Below are positions 48,837 to 53,791 of a stretch of 64,000 nucleotides of DNA, one piece after another. The notes beneath the pieces were generated by a model. It was not told the DNA's origin. It was given only the letters and a program-made list of their open reading frames with translations, and made no database searches. The translations under genes were made by a program, and so were the position numbers. Each line of letters starts with the position of its first letter. Position 1 is the stretch's first letter. This DNA is from an uncultured bacterium (GTDB lineage Bacteria > Cyanobacteriota > Vampirovibrionia > Gastranaerophilales > Gastranaerophilaceae): assembly GCA_949292175.1 (NCBI GenBank), contig CASEYJ010000007.1:1-64000 (forward strand), read 5' to 3'.

Positions 48837-48869
48837 AAAAAATCCCTGACAATTGTCAGGGATTTTTTT
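48837..48869. terminator. bidirectional terminator
   Basis: AAATCCCTGAC and GTCAGGGATTT with a 4-nt loop, A run on the left and seven T on the right, between convergent genes; the last T of the run is the first base of the minus-strand stop. Confidence 0.9.
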
Positions 48870-50178
48870 AATCTTCTGTTGGAGTTTCTCCAAAAATTCT
48901 TATTGCAAGCTCAAGGACTTTATTCCAGTCATACAAAGCAGGAGGAATCTTACCTAATCTTGCATAACCAATGGCCTCATCTTTTGAATAGTCCACAGTA
49001 CTACCATCTTTATTTGCTTGGATTGTCACGGTTTTAATCTTACCGTTAGCATCTCTTGTTATTTCTATTTTCTGTCCATTTGGCAAAGTTACAGACTCTT
49101 CTTTAGAATCCTTAACCTTTTGAACTTTGAGTTTGGGCTCTGCATACGCAGCTACTGCAAGATTTAGATTTGCGCCCACAAATAAAGATTTTTCTTCTGT
49201 ATAATTCTTTAATGCAGCTTTTTCGGCTTCAGTAGTTGGTTTAAAATCTGATTTCATAATTGCAGCAGCATCTTCTGTAATTTTTGCTTCTCGATCTTCG
49301 GCAGACAATTTACCATCACCTGAAACCGTCTCAGGAGGATCATCTACATCATCTGTTTCATCTGGAACTTCATCTTCTTCTTCAACAGTGGCAGCCGATG
49401 AAACATTTGCGCTTGCAATACTAACACCATGTCCCTCTGAGTCATTCATCTGAACCAACATAGGAACACCGTTTATTGTTCTAAGATCATATCCATTACC
49501 TTTTGAATATTTACCTCCAGGTCCTGAAGTACATTTGTATACGACTTTATCAGTAACACTGGTATCAAGTTCAAACGTATAAACTCCGCCATTATCAGCA
49601 TCAGTTATTGTAAATTTGGCAGGATTTTCACCATTTTTCGCTTCACCTTCAACCGTAATCTTTCCATGAATAGGACGAGTTGGAAGATTTCCATCAGCAT
49701 CAGGTTCATCGATTACTTCAAACTGTTTACCATTCAAATCTGCCCAGTTAGCTTTATCGGCTGGCTTATTTTCACCTTTGTACTTATTAACTTGTCGTTC
49801 TTCTGTTTGGGCTTCAGGGGTTTCTGACTGTTTTGGAGCATCAGTCTTTTCTGACGTCTTAGCTTCCGCTGCTGGATCCTTAGCATCCTTTTCTACAGGT
49901 TTAGCCTCAGGAACCTTCGCAGATGCTAATTGTTTTGTACGCTCCTGCATTGCCGCATAATGCTGAATAGCCTCCTCGGTCGGAATCATTGAAAATTCTC
50001 TTCTTTCCGGAACTCCATTACTTGGAACAGGTAGATCAGGATGTCTTAATTTAAACTCTTCCCAGACCCTATAAGTAGTATCGCTTCGGACAACTTCAAC
50101 CTTTGCAGACTCTCCAAGTGCAGCCTTTGTTCGTCTTGCAACATCTAAAATCTTTGCATCTATATCATGATCACCCAT
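48868..50178 (-). CDS. acidic low-complexity protein of unknown function
   Basis: A 436-residue soluble protein with no signal peptide or membrane span. The N-terminus (1-90) is a charged, mixed region. An Ala/Lys/Glu/Pro-rich linker (about 95-145) precedes a beta-rich middle (about 150-260) with repeated GKFxVxG/D-like phrases and GGVYTFELD. A Glu/Asp-rich stretch (about 270-290, EEEDEVPDETDDVDD) and a C-terminal domain with KVKDSKEESVTLPNGQKIEI follow. No family recognised. Ribosome site GAGGA. It lies downstream of the nusA terminator and has its own start of transcription. Confidence 0.65.
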   Translation of the reverse strand: MGDHDIDAKILDVARRTKAALGESAKVEVVRSDTTYRVWEEFKLRHPDLPVPSNGVPERREFSMIPTEEAIQHYAAMQERTKQLASAKVPEAKPVEKDAKDPAAEAKTSEKTDAPKQSETPEAQTEERQVNKYKGENKPADKANWADLNGKQFEVIDEPDADGNLPTRPIHGKITVEGEAKNGENPAKFTITDADNGGVYTFELDTSVTDKVVYKCTSGPGGKYSKGNGYDLRTINGVPMLVQMNDSEGHGVSIASANVSSAATVEEEDEVPDETDDVDDPPETVSGDGKLSAEDREAKITEDAAAIMKSDFKPTTEAEKAALKNYTEEKSLFVGANLNLAVAAYAEPKLKVQKVKDSKEESVTLPNGQKIEITRDANGKIKTVTIQANKDGSTVDYSKDEAIGYARLGKIPPALYDWNKVLELAIRIFGETPTED

Positions 50179-50303
50179 AAAATCCTCACTTTATACTTCT
50201 CGACTTCATATAATTATATAAAGTCGTATTAGTATATAAAATTGACATAACAAGTAAATACTTATGCTTATTTGTAATAAAAGTTTACATTTGTAAGCAC
50301 AAA

Positions 50304-50332
50304 AAAATCCTCTACGAAAGTAGAGGATTTTT
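50304..50332 (-). terminator. rho-independent terminator after nusA
   Basis: On the minus strand, AAAAATCCTCTAC pairs with GTAGAGGATTTTT around a 4-nt loop, then more T. It ends the rimP-nusA unit. Confidence 0.9.
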
Positions 50333-50346
50333 GTCAGTGTTCGAAA

Positions 50347-51588
50347 TTAAACTTCATCTTCAGAAGATTCATCTTCGCTAACTTCATCAGCCGGTTGAAT
50401 ATCTTCTTCATCATATGCTTGTTGATTCATTTCTTCTTCAATTTCCTGTTGAAGTTCATCATCTTCATGTTCGAAATCGTCTTCAATTACTTCTTCAGGT
50501 TCTTCATACACATGAGCTGCTTCAGCCTTTTCCATCTGAGAAACACTCTTGATATCGATCTTCCATCCGGTCAACTTGTGAGCAAGTCTTACGTTCTGAC
50601 CTTCACGACCGATAGCTAATGACAATTGATCATCCGGAACAACAACCATAGCTTCGTGAGCATATTCATCATCCGCAAGAATATCAACAGAAACAACTCT
50701 TGCTGGAGAAAGAGCATTTACGATATATTCAACAGGATCTTCTGAATATCTTACGATATCAATTTTTTCATTCTTAAGTTCAGAAACAATAGTCTGAATA
50801 CGGCTTCCGCGAGGTCCGATACAAGCACCAACACTATCAACCTCAGGATCATTTGACCATACAGCAATCTTTGTTCTAAATCCTGCTTCACGAGAAATTG
50901 ATTTAATTTCAACAATACCGTCTTCAATTTCAGGAACTTCAAGTTCAAAAAGTTCACGAACGATTTCAGCATGAGCGTGAGATACGATTACTTGAGGAAG
51001 TCTTGTTGTTTCTTTAACGTTAAGAACAAAAACTCTAATTCTGTTGCCAGGCTTGTAATATTCGCCAGGGATTTGTTCCTTCTGAGGCATAATAGCATCA
51101 GTCTTACCGATGTTAACAATAACGTTTCTATTTTCAACACGTTGAATAATACCTGTTGTAAGAGTACCTTTCTTTTCCAAAAATTCATTTAGAACAAGGT
51201 TTCTTTCAGCTTCTCTAATTCTCTGTGTCAAAACTTGTTTTGCAGCCTGAGCAGCGATTCTGCCGAACTGTTCAGGAGTAACTTCAAGTTTAACTTCATC
51301 GCCGGCTTCAACATCTTCATCAATTTCTTTAGCTTCAGCAAGAGAAATTTGAGTTTCATCATCTTCAACAGAATCAACAACAACCTTTGTACTGAAAACA
51401 CCGATTTCACCCGATTGCTCATCCAAAATCGCTTCAATATTAGTTGCTTCTTTGTTTCTCATATGCTTTTTGTAAGCTGCAACCATTGCATCACAAAGAG
51501 AATTTACAAGAACTTCTTTTGATATTCCACGTTCTCTTTCCAATTCTTCAAGCGCTTCATTTAAGTTTCCGCCGCCAATTTTAATCAT
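50347..51588 (-). CDS. nusA: transcription termination/antitermination factor NusA
   Basis: A 413-residue RNA polymerase-associated factor. The N-terminal RNAP-binding domain (about 1-130), S1 domain (about 135-200) and two KH domains (about 205-345; VGACIGPRGSRIQTIVSEL and AIGREGQNVRLAHKLTGWKI) are intact. The C-terminal tail (about 360-413) is almost wholly acidic, with EEPEEVIEDDFEHEDDE-type runs, and replaces the helix-hairpin repeats of proteobacterial NusA. It follows rimP by 33 nt with ribosome site AAAGGAG. Unlike in most bacteria, ylxR and infB do not follow; a terminator does. Confidence 0.96.
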   Translation of the reverse strand: MIKIGGGNLNEALEELERERGISKEVLVNSLCDAMVAAYKKHMRNKEATNIEAILDEQSGEIGVFSTKVVVDSVEDDETQISLAEAKEIDEDVEAGDEVKLEVTPEQFGRIAAQAAKQVLTQRIREAERNLVLNEFLEKKGTLTTGIIQRVENRNVIVNIGKTDAIMPQKEQIPGEYYKPGNRIRVFVLNVKETTRLPQVIVSHAHAEIVRELFELEVPEIEDGIVEIKSISREAGFRTKIAVWSNDPEVDSVGACIGPRGSRIQTIVSELKNEKIDIVRYSEDPVEYIVNALSPARVVSVDILADDEYAHEAMVVVPDDQLSLAIGREGQNVRLAHKLTGWKIDIKSVSQMEKAEAAHVYEEPEEVIEDDFEHEDDELQQEIEEEMNQQAYDEEDIQPADEVSEDESSEDEV

Positions 51589-51621: not shown

Positions 51622-52107
51622 TTAATCTATATATAATTTTGCTGATTGAATATTACTTCTTGGAATTTGAAGCTCAACACCATCATCAAATCTAAAAAAC
51701 TTCAATCCATTCACATCATCAAAATCAAGAATTTCACCTTTAAAAATCTTCTCAGTTTCCCCTTCTAAAGGTTCCTTCAACTTTATTGAAACTCTACGGC
51801 CTTTAAAGATAACAAATTCTTTATCAGACTTAAACTTTCTTTCTAACCCCGGGGAAGAAACCTCCAAATAATACTTTACAGGAATAAGTTCATCAAGAAA
51901 ATCGCTTAAGCTTCTTGTAACCTTTTCACAATCGTCCAGAGTAACATCCTTTTCTGAGGAATACAAATATATACGAAGGAACCATCTATGATTTTCTTTA
52001 ACGAATTCGATCTCAATAGGAACATATCCAAAACGCATAGCGGTATTTTCAATTAATGGAGTAATTTTGTCGATAATTTCGTATTTATTAATATCCTGTT
52101 TTGACAT
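51622..52107 (-). CDS. rimP: ribosome maturation factor RimP
   Basis: A 161-residue 30S subunit assembly factor. The N-terminal alpha/beta domain has ITPLIENTAMRFGYVPIEIEF and DDCEKVTRSLSDFLDE, and the YYLEVSSPGLERKFKSDKEF motif leads to the C-terminal SH3-like barrel (about 85-161) with GRRVSIKL. Usual length. ATG chosen is at MSKQD; GTG 6 nt upstream is an alternative. First gene of the rimP-nusA pair, as in most bacteria. Confidence 0.93.
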   Translation of the reverse strand: MSKQDINKYEIIDKITPLIENTAMRFGYVPIEIEFVKENHRWFLRIYLYSSEKDVTLDDCEKVTRSLSDFLDELIPVKYYLEVSSPGLERKFKSDKEFVIFKGRRVSIKLKEPLEGETEKIFKGEILDFDDVNGLKFFRFDDGVELQIPRSNIQSAKLYID

Positions 52108-52135
52108 ACACACCAGACCTTTCCTCTATTTGAAG

Positions 52136-52165
52136 AAAAAAGAACGGGGGTTCCCGTTCTTTTTT
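52136..52165 (-). terminator. terminator, also a possible rimP-nusA leader attenuator
   Basis: AAAAAAGAACGGG pairs with CCCGTTCTTTTTT around a 4-nt loop (minus strand). It lies 79 nt after the stop of the coiled-coil gene and 29 nt before rimP. Because a rimP promoter-like sequence is upstream of it (52191-52219), the hairpin is likely also in the rimP-nusA leader. Confidence 0.85.
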
Positions 52166-52190
52166 ATGCGACAATGCTGTCTTCTCTCAC

Positions 52191-52219
52191 ATTTTACCGT
52201 AAGTAAATTTAAAAGTAAA
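52191..52219 (-). promoter_or_regulatory. candidate promoter of rimP-nusA
   Basis: On the minus strand, TTTACT (52214-52219), 17-bp spacer and TAAAAT (52191-52196). Predicted start near 52184, giving a leader of about 77 nt that contains the hairpin at 52136-52165. Confidence 0.5.
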
Positions 52220-52243
52220 CCAATTCGTAAAGAAAAGTAAAGA

Positions 52244-53791
52244 CTATGTTGTTTCGGTTCCAAGCTGTTGTTTATACTCTTCTTCTGTAACTTTTTTACC
52301 ATCAATTACAAAGATTGGTTGACCGTGAGAATCTAAGCCGCTCTTAAATTCATGCCCGCCCTGATACACTACATCATCAAGATTTCGTATATCAACAGTT
52401 TCTTGCAAAGCCTGCTGTTCTGCGGAAACTTTTAGAAGTTTTTCCTCTTTTTTCTTAGCTTTATCGACTTTACCACTCTCATTAAGCTGAGTACATTCAA
52501 TCTGTAAATCAGTAACTTGTTTATTTAATTTTTCAAGTTCTTTATCTTCTTTTTCTTTAAGTTTCTTTAATCTATCCTCTTGTTTCGGAATTTCTTCCTT
52601 ATACATATCTGCAGAAGCTTTTGCACTATCAAGTTTAGGTGGAACTTCCTGCAATATTTTATTATTAGCATTAACTGCATCTTGCGCTGTTTTTACATTA
52701 TTTTCAGCATCTTGAAGTTTTGGTTCAAGTTCCTTCAACTGAGCATTAGCATCGTTAATCTTCTTCTGCAAATCATCAACTCTGGCTTTAGCATTATCCA
52801 TAGCTTCTTTAAGTTCCTGTTTATTAGGAGCATCAGCTGGAGCCGATTCATAAGCATTTTTGGTATTATTATAAGAATCCAGAGCTTTATCAAGGGATTG
52901 TTCAGTGGAGTTTCGGGTATTCGTCAGGTCGCCAACCTGTTTCTTCAAACCATCGCGAGTTGTAGTTGCTGTTGTCAGATTAGTTTGATAAGTTTCTTTA
53001 TTATCATTTGCAGTTTTTAATTGCTGCTCTAAATCAGTAACAGTAGCATTAGTAGTCTCTAAATCAGCTTTTGAAGAAGTTATTGCCGAGCCTAAATCTG
53101 CTGAGCTTTCTGCGCCTTTCATTCTCTTAACATTATTAACTGTCGATTCACTGGCCTTTGCAACACTCTTACTGCCTGTTCCACCTCCCTCGGAAGCTTT
53201 ACTATCCTTGGTAGAGAAAGTATCCCAGATAGTTTTACCTAAATTTATAATATCTGTTGCAATACTTGTCGCAGACGTTGCGGTGGTTACGGCATCGGCT
53301 GTCGTAGTACTATTTTGAGTATAAGTAGGAGTCGTTGTCGCATAAGCTCCTCGACCATATGCTCCATCTAATAATCGCTGCATAGCCCTATCATTATAAC
53401 CGGTCATATTAGAAGCTCTAGTATAACCAAAATCTTGATATTGGAGAGTTTTAGGGCGTACGTACTCAGTAGTTCTTCCTGCTGATACATAATTTTCACT
53501 TCTTTGTGTACCTTGCTGAGGAGATGTTCTTGAAGTAGCAGCACTATGTGAAGATACGCTATTCATAGTTCGGACCGGAGCATTACCATTTAAGATTGAC
53601 CCTGTATTAGAATTCCAACTTCCAGTCGCACGCTGCATTGTAGTCAAATTTGCGGCTGCAGATGTAGCTGTTGAATTGCGCGCTTGTGTAGCTCCTGACG
53701 ATCCTTTGTCAGAAGAAAAATTGTCGCGTATGCTGGTATTCGAATTAAATGAGGTTCGAACACCGGGTTTGAATTTCAACTCAACGTTCAT
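52244..53791 (-). CDS. Ser/Thr-rich protein with long coiled coil
   Basis: A 515-residue soluble-looking protein without signal peptide. The N-terminal 200 residues are rich in Ser, Thr, Asn and Ala, with short stretches such as RTSFNSN. Residues about 225-440 form a long coiled coil (regular hydrophobic heptads; LEQQLKTANDNKETYQ and KKLKEKEDKELEKLNKQ). The C-terminus (about 440-515) is a small mixed domain with GGHEFKSGLDSHGQPIFVI. No family recognised. A Thr/Ala-rich head with coiled-coil tail suggests a filament or a surface-associated structural protein, but localisation cannot be told from sequence. Followed by a terminator. Confidence 0.7.
   Translation of the reverse strand: MNVELKFKPGVRTSFNSNTSIRDNFSSDKGSSGATQARNSTATSAAANLTTMQRATGSWNSNTGSILNGNAPVRTMNSVSSHSAATSRTSPQQGTQRSENYVSAGRTTEYVRPKTLQYQDFGYTRASNMTGYNDRAMQRLLDGAYGRGAYATTTPTYTQNSTTTADAVTTATSATSIATDIINLGKTIWDTFSTKDSKASEGGGTGSKSVAKASESTVNNVKRMKGAESSADLGSAITSSKADLETTNATVTDLEQQLKTANDNKETYQTNLTTATTTRDGLKKQVGDLTNTRNSTEQSLDKALDSYNNTKNAYESAPADAPNKQELKEAMDNAKARVDDLQKKINDANAQLKELEPKLQDAENNVKTAQDAVNANNKILQEVPPKLDSAKASADMYKEEIPKQEDRLKKLKEKEDKELEKLNKQVTDLQIECTQLNESGKVDKAKKKEEKLLKVSAEQQALQETVDIRNLDDVVYQGGHEFKSGLDSHGQPIFVIDGKKVTEEEYKQQLGTETT

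Follow-up and report, generated by a model that had tools for sequence, protein, structure and literature searches.

The rimP-nusA locus studied here raises the question of whether RNA polymerase has to pass an intrinsic terminator before it reaches nusA and, if so, what sets the share of transcripts that end there. The locus lies in a stretch of 64,000 nucleotides, called the window below, within an assembly of 1.63 Mb in 17 contigs from a cyanobacterial relative that lives in the gut. The identities of rimP and nusA are secure from their Pfam matches. The features that the argument needs are as follows.

52244..53791, minus strand: upstream co-directional gene of 515 aa, from the ORF list, with no Pfam family above the cut-off; a putative coiled-coil gene according to the first-pass annotation.
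52227..52241, minus strand: two extra copies of TTTAC, 12 and 22 nt upstream of the -35 TTTAC, from the sequence.
52191..52219, minus strand: sigma-70-type promoter TTTACT-17-TAAAAT, with the same -35/spacer/-10 in 80/80 leaders.
52170..52181, minus strand: 5' mini-hairpin GACA-GCAT-TGTC at the start of the predicted transcript, the sole exact copy in the genome.
52136..52165, minus strand: leader terminator hairpin AAAAAAGAACGGG-AACC-CCCGTTCTTTTTT, from sequence, folding and conservation.
51622..52113, minus strand: rimP, 163 aa from GTG (Pfam RimP_N 1.9e-19, DUF150_C 3.8e-9).
50347..51588, minus strand: nusA, 413 aa (Pfam NusA_N 4.2e-38, KH_5, S1).
50303..50332, minus strand: terminator 3' of nusA, from a terminator scan, which closes the two-gene rimP-nusA operon.

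Read along the minus strand, the stop of the 515-aa gene (52244) is followed by the promoter, the palindrome GACAGCATTGTC, the hairpin, a purine-rich stretch, rimP, nusA and the closing terminator. The start of rimP may be at 52113 (GTG) or 52107 (ATG), both on the minus strand. A second long flanking ORF (436 aa, 48868-50178, minus strand) likewise has no Pfam family above the cut-off.

The first-pass annotation had described a perfect terminator at 52136-52165, and this was correct to the base. The 13-bp stem has no mismatch and consists of an A-tract (52165-52160), the stem arm GAACGGG (52159-52153), the loop AACC (52152-52149), the arm CCCGTTC (52148-52142) and a T-tract (52141-52136). A terminator scan did not list this hairpin, presumably because its T-run was counted inside the stem. 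The 82-nt leader folded more stably than its shuffles (z of -2.39), 3 of 200 shuffles being equally good. The exact hairpin pattern was found at just one other site in the 1.63-Mb genome, which led us to reject a general terminator family. That site (L082:1501-1519) has the genome's sole other GAACGG..CCGTTC hairpin; it is flanked on either side by a stretch that appears to be coding and is perhaps an ordinary terminator.

The promoter was likewise exact as first annotated, with the -35 TTTACT at 52219-52214, a 17-bp spacer and the -10 TAAAAT at 52196-52191, and transcription is predicted to start near 52184. The same scan gave 29 promoter-like sites where shuffled sequence would yield 31.5; by itself, therefore, the promoter match does not exceed what chance would give. 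We examined its conservation in a leader set of the window and 79 further loci (n=80), picked as the best RimP matches to the window, with close relatives over-represented; L054, whose contig reaches just 173 nt upstream and is too short, was left out of all leader counts, and L002 and L049 were left out of alignment A1 only. TTTAC[TA] was found 17 bp before the -10 box and upstream of the hairpin in all 80 leaders, and with the spacer free to vary within 16-19, 77 of 78 rows took 17. For the promoter score we kept the spacer at 17: at least 10/12 was reached by 79/80 leaders, compared with 2.5% of 1600 mononucleotide shuffles. This conservation, far beyond chance, makes the predicted arrangement of promoter and hairpin convincing.

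Many of the closest RimP relatives come from records titled Candidatus Gastranaerophilales or Melainabacteria. Three loci from records titled Clostridiaceae, Brachyspira and Acinetobacter (L036, L041 and L081) have a RimP 82-87% identical to that of the window and the same leader, and are probably mislabelled assemblies.

The order of -35/17/-10, hairpin and rimP, which the first-pass annotation had proposed to compare among relatives, was kept in the window and in 79/79 assessable loci. Because promoter, hairpin, rimP and nusA follow one another in this order, RNA polymerase starting there would have to pass the terminator to reach nusA, as that annotation had claimed. It had also named a rimP start between the hairpin and rimP as evidence that would speak against this idea, and the scan listed no promoter-like site there. 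A promoter predicted upstream of the terminator is what is expected of a NusA-autoregulated attenuator. The hairpin lies at most 500 nt from rimP in 77/80 related loci; in L002 (~660 nt) and L049 (~630 nt) it lies behind insertions, with ~600 nt of repeat-like sequence (GATTCTTCG.., GAGCGAAGCGAAGAATC) separating it from rimP. In L060 (3930-5010) the whole rimP leader is duplicated, with copies ~826 nt apart that are the same as those of G033 in the covariance-model search. The sequence between these copies holds two small ORFs on the reverse strand, of which one matches CopG_antitoxin below threshold, and most of the promoter spacer is missing from the upstream copy. As for the extra TTTAC copies, NTTAC occurs exactly 12 nt upstream of the -35 in 46/80 leaders and at 22 nt in 16/80. 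These direct repeats may be a putative activator site, for which we considered RpaB/HLR1 as a candidate.

The sequence of the terminator stem is conserved beyond hairpin formation, as is the case for the known rimP-leader. The 5' arm reads GAACGG in 79/80 leaders and GAACGA in the remaining one, whereas the nusA 3' terminators of the same loci comprise 52 different first-six stem cores among 62 (62/80 loci were used for this control, after removal of loci at contig ends and of those in which no 3' terminator was detected). A near-fixed leader arm against such varied control terminators indicates selection on more than the formation of a hairpin. The leader core hairpin was also weaker than the 3' terminator of its own locus in 51/62 cases, with means of -9.2 and -12.9 kcal/mol, respectively; regulatory terminators are described in PMC2965389 as less stable than ordinary ones.

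What could set the terminated share is narrowed by the small size of the leader. The -10 box and the GAAC arm are 12-34 nt apart in 80/80 leaders, and the transcribed part ahead of the hairpin must be even shorter, which leaves no room for a riboswitch or leader peptide upstream of the hairpin. Indeed, no aptamer or leader ORF was found between the start and the terminator, and Rfam riboswitches are absent from the region. The leaders fall into three types: 53 carry the mini-hairpin GACAGYATTGTC or a variant, as the window does, 15 carry AATAGTTTCTT or a close sequence, and 12 have neither. In folds of the nascent RNA that still lacks the 3' arm, the mean probability that the 5' arm pairs with RNA upstream of it was 0.12 in the window type (n=53; 0.01 in the window itself), 0.59 in the 15 second-type leaders and 0.02 in the 12 leaders without a 5' element. 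An antiterminator was thus not found for the window type, and a weak one appeared in the second type only. The first and third types having no competing structure, antitermination by RNA refolding is not the shared mechanism. With neither a riboswitch or leader peptide nor a window-type antiterminator, a protein on RNA polymerase is indicated, most likely NusA. NusA stimulates termination and is itself a product of the operon downstream of the hairpin.

It is therefore likely, in our judgement, that the hairpin acts close to the promoter as a transcription attenuator of rimP-nusA, and that the terminated share is most likely set by NusA on RNA polymerase. Transcription would begin at the predicted start, and RNA polymerase would arrive at the intrinsic terminator after about 20-50 nt. 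Some transcripts would stop there as a ~50-nt leader RNA, and the remainder would extend through the two genes. The proportion would most likely depend on a protein that RNA polymerase carries, and if this is NusA, a higher NusA level would give more termination and less nusA mRNA. As a counterpoint, the strong 13-bp stem of the window with its six U could terminate without NusA.

The precedent that the first-pass annotation had named, leader-terminator autoregulation in B. subtilis, is borne out by PMC12288461, according to which NusA of B. subtilis controls its own expression by stimulating termination in the leader; as described there, that leader terminator likewise lies upstream of the NusA-encoding operon. 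The same has been proposed in S. agalactiae, for a rimP-nusA operon with a similarly short leader (PMC4448216). According to that report, RNA-seq detects a short RNA that ends 31 nt after the transcript start, and the short and long rimP-nusA RNAs have one start in common; by description, the terminator within ~31 nt of the start resembles the one here. Both systems weigh against a reading that we regard as unlikely but the most serious of the alternatives, namely that premature termination is real and its effector is RimP, NusG, a retained sigma factor or none at all, as in a fixed attenuator. In its favour, rimP leads the operon, the conserved 5' mini-hairpin might be a site for some protein besides NusA, and RNA polymerase would reach the hairpin so soon that it may not yet have released sigma. 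NusG, moreover, is reported in PMC8060035 to be an intrinsic termination factor in B. subtilis as well.

The 5' mini-hairpin GACAGYAUUGUC, carried by 53/80 leaders, appears to be a second conserved element that is new here. It is paired in every one of the 51 rows of the alignment, both partners vary at two of the four pairs, and its core CAGYAUUG is nearly invariant. A role of GACAGYATTGTC as a DNA operator is weakly disfavoured, as one pair is A-U in 41 rows, G-C in 5 and G-U in 5, with no A-C, the rows being related. We think it improbable, though worth stating, that the leader is a new two-part RNA element, made up of the mini-hairpin and the terminator of frozen sequence, in which the mini-hairpin would be a protein site (for NusA KH domains, RimP or another protein) that tunes termination, or in which the ~50-nt terminated RNA would act in trans as a small RNA. 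We also considered the leader as a possible target of the NusA KH domains through a boxC-like AGAAC / AAUAG motif; a literature search on this motif found no paper containing it.

Two further explanations deny that attenuation occurs at all. It is very unlikely that the hairpin is a non-terminating 5' stabiliser that shields rimP-nusA mRNA from RNases. The A-tract does pair with the T-tract, and this pairing is kept through a double change in L034 (A1) and L058 (A2), which would suit a stabiliser; against this, at least 5 T follow the 3' arm in 77/80 leaders, as a terminator requires, the core has a lower stability than the terminators that close the operon, and the S. agalactiae counterpart terminates by RNA-seq (PMC4448216). 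It is equally improbable that the hairpin only ends the upstream gene, rimP-nusA starting elsewhere or relying on read-through: the upstream gene is indeed co-directional in 68/77 loci, and among the 70 leaders in which a co-directional open frame ends no more than 200 nt away, another terminator-like hairpin precedes the promoter in 3 (L017, L029 and L058) and in none of the other 67, but the hairpin is retained in the 9/77 hairpin-bearing leaders whose nearest upstream ORF (at least 90 aa) is on the opposite strand (those of L059 and L060 being short), a 17-bp-spaced promoter lies between the upstream gene and the hairpin in 80/80, and the leader stem sequence is frozen, unlike that of the nusA 3' terminators. 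The same 67 leaders make it plausible that the hairpin is dual-purpose, as the first-pass annotation had suggested, and in the window it may also terminate the transcript of the upstream 515-aa gene.

Attenuation at this position has a well-described relative. The rimP-leader is the most frequent attenuator found in PMC2965389 (Naville and Gautheret 2010), where it is described with a conserved GGGc..gCCC terminator stem and where NusA is proposed as the protein that recognises it. As in that description, the leader studied here has, by sequence, an intrinsic terminator in the rimP-nusA 5' UTR, a stem of conserved sequence, G-rich in the 5' arm and C-rich in the 3' arm, with T after it, and no larger conserved element of the riboswitch kind, and its distance from hairpin to rimP is mostly within the 4-130 nt given there. 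It differs from the published description in its stem (GAACGGG..CCCGTTC rather than GGGc..gCCC), its very short 5' leader, the extra 5' mini-hairpin in 53/80 leaders and its two-gene operon, which lacks infB. In the window, GGG..CCC adjoins the loop without the neighbouring c..g, and second-type relatives keep GG..CC(C). The Rfam family RF01770 (rimP) matched nothing at the locus when E values as high as 1 were admitted and was over the cut-off in 0/28 related genomes, its sub-threshold matches being scattered over the genomes. No Rfam family was assigned at the locus, the sole listed match being sR2, which lies within nusA and scores well short of its gathering threshold. The leader thus appears to work and to be placed like the rimP-leader, yet to fall outside RF01770 as modelled. 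The E. coli metY-rimP-nusA-infB leader also has a terminator shortly before rimP, with a GGGC..GCCC stem and a T-run; unlike here, it has tandem terminators behind a tRNA gene and a long leader. A literature search, with supplements outside its scope, found no paper on a rimP leader in cyanobacteria or Gastranaerophilales, and the string 'cyanobacteri' is absent from the main text of PMC2965389.

To see how far the leader terminator extends, we examined 53 further genomes from the family, order, class and phylum. In 41/53 of them, rimP is preceded by a terminator of comparable form (38 by script; L159, L160 and L175 by eye), and 12/53 had no terminator there, one of which (L147) gave coding sequence only. 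Our own covariance model matched 90/117 genomes, a number that includes weak matches, not all of them rimP leaders, and is not a leader count. From the 27 family genomes without a match we chose 20, of which 19 had rimP. Fifteen of these 19 had a hairpin and U-tract (partly read by eye), and four (L155, L196, L197 and L198; L155 is also in the 53-genome set) had no hairpin with a U-tract before rimP. L196-L198 carry a GTAGTTTC..GGAACTAC hairpin without a U-tract upstream of rimP, and L155 keeps the mini-hairpin CAGTATTG in the absence of the usual terminator.

Beyond the close relatives, the stem shows compensated changes (GAAACGG..CCGTTTC, GAGCGG..CCGCTC and GAGCGG..CCGTTC). Other families of the order have the stem GAGAGTGGG..CCCACTCTC, and most other Cyanobacteriota sampled have AAGTGGG..CCCACTTTTTTTATTG or a similar GTGGG..CCCAC terminator, of which GAACGGG looks like a recoded version. 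Judged from these genomes, the leader terminator is old and widespread in the phylum, not universal. Several leaders carry possible antiterminators that overlap the 5' arm of the terminator, namely TCTCGAAAGAGAGT in L161-L166 and AGCC..GGCT before GCTGG in L134-L136. In the cyanobacterial leaders L151, L168, L169, L186 and L187, a sequence like ACTTCTTGGAAGATATC lies upstream of the terminator and is complementary to its GAAGT arm.

Taken together, the leader appears to be a known attenuator in a form particular to this lineage and with one extra RNA element, its kind of control being already known in other bacteria. The terminator probably lets NusA limit its own production; here the anatomy is well supported by conservation across dozens of related species, and NusA is the step that we infer. 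The known range of the rimP-leader attenuator would thereby come to include Gastranaerophilales and Cyanobacteriota at large, in which compensating changes have recoded the stem (GAGTGG, GAGCGG, GAAACGG and GAACGG) around a constant GG..CC core. This natural series of stems shows which positions matter and makes it testable whether NusA recognises the sequence of the terminator stem or its shape only. It also reveals lineage-specific 5' elements, which may be additional layers of control.
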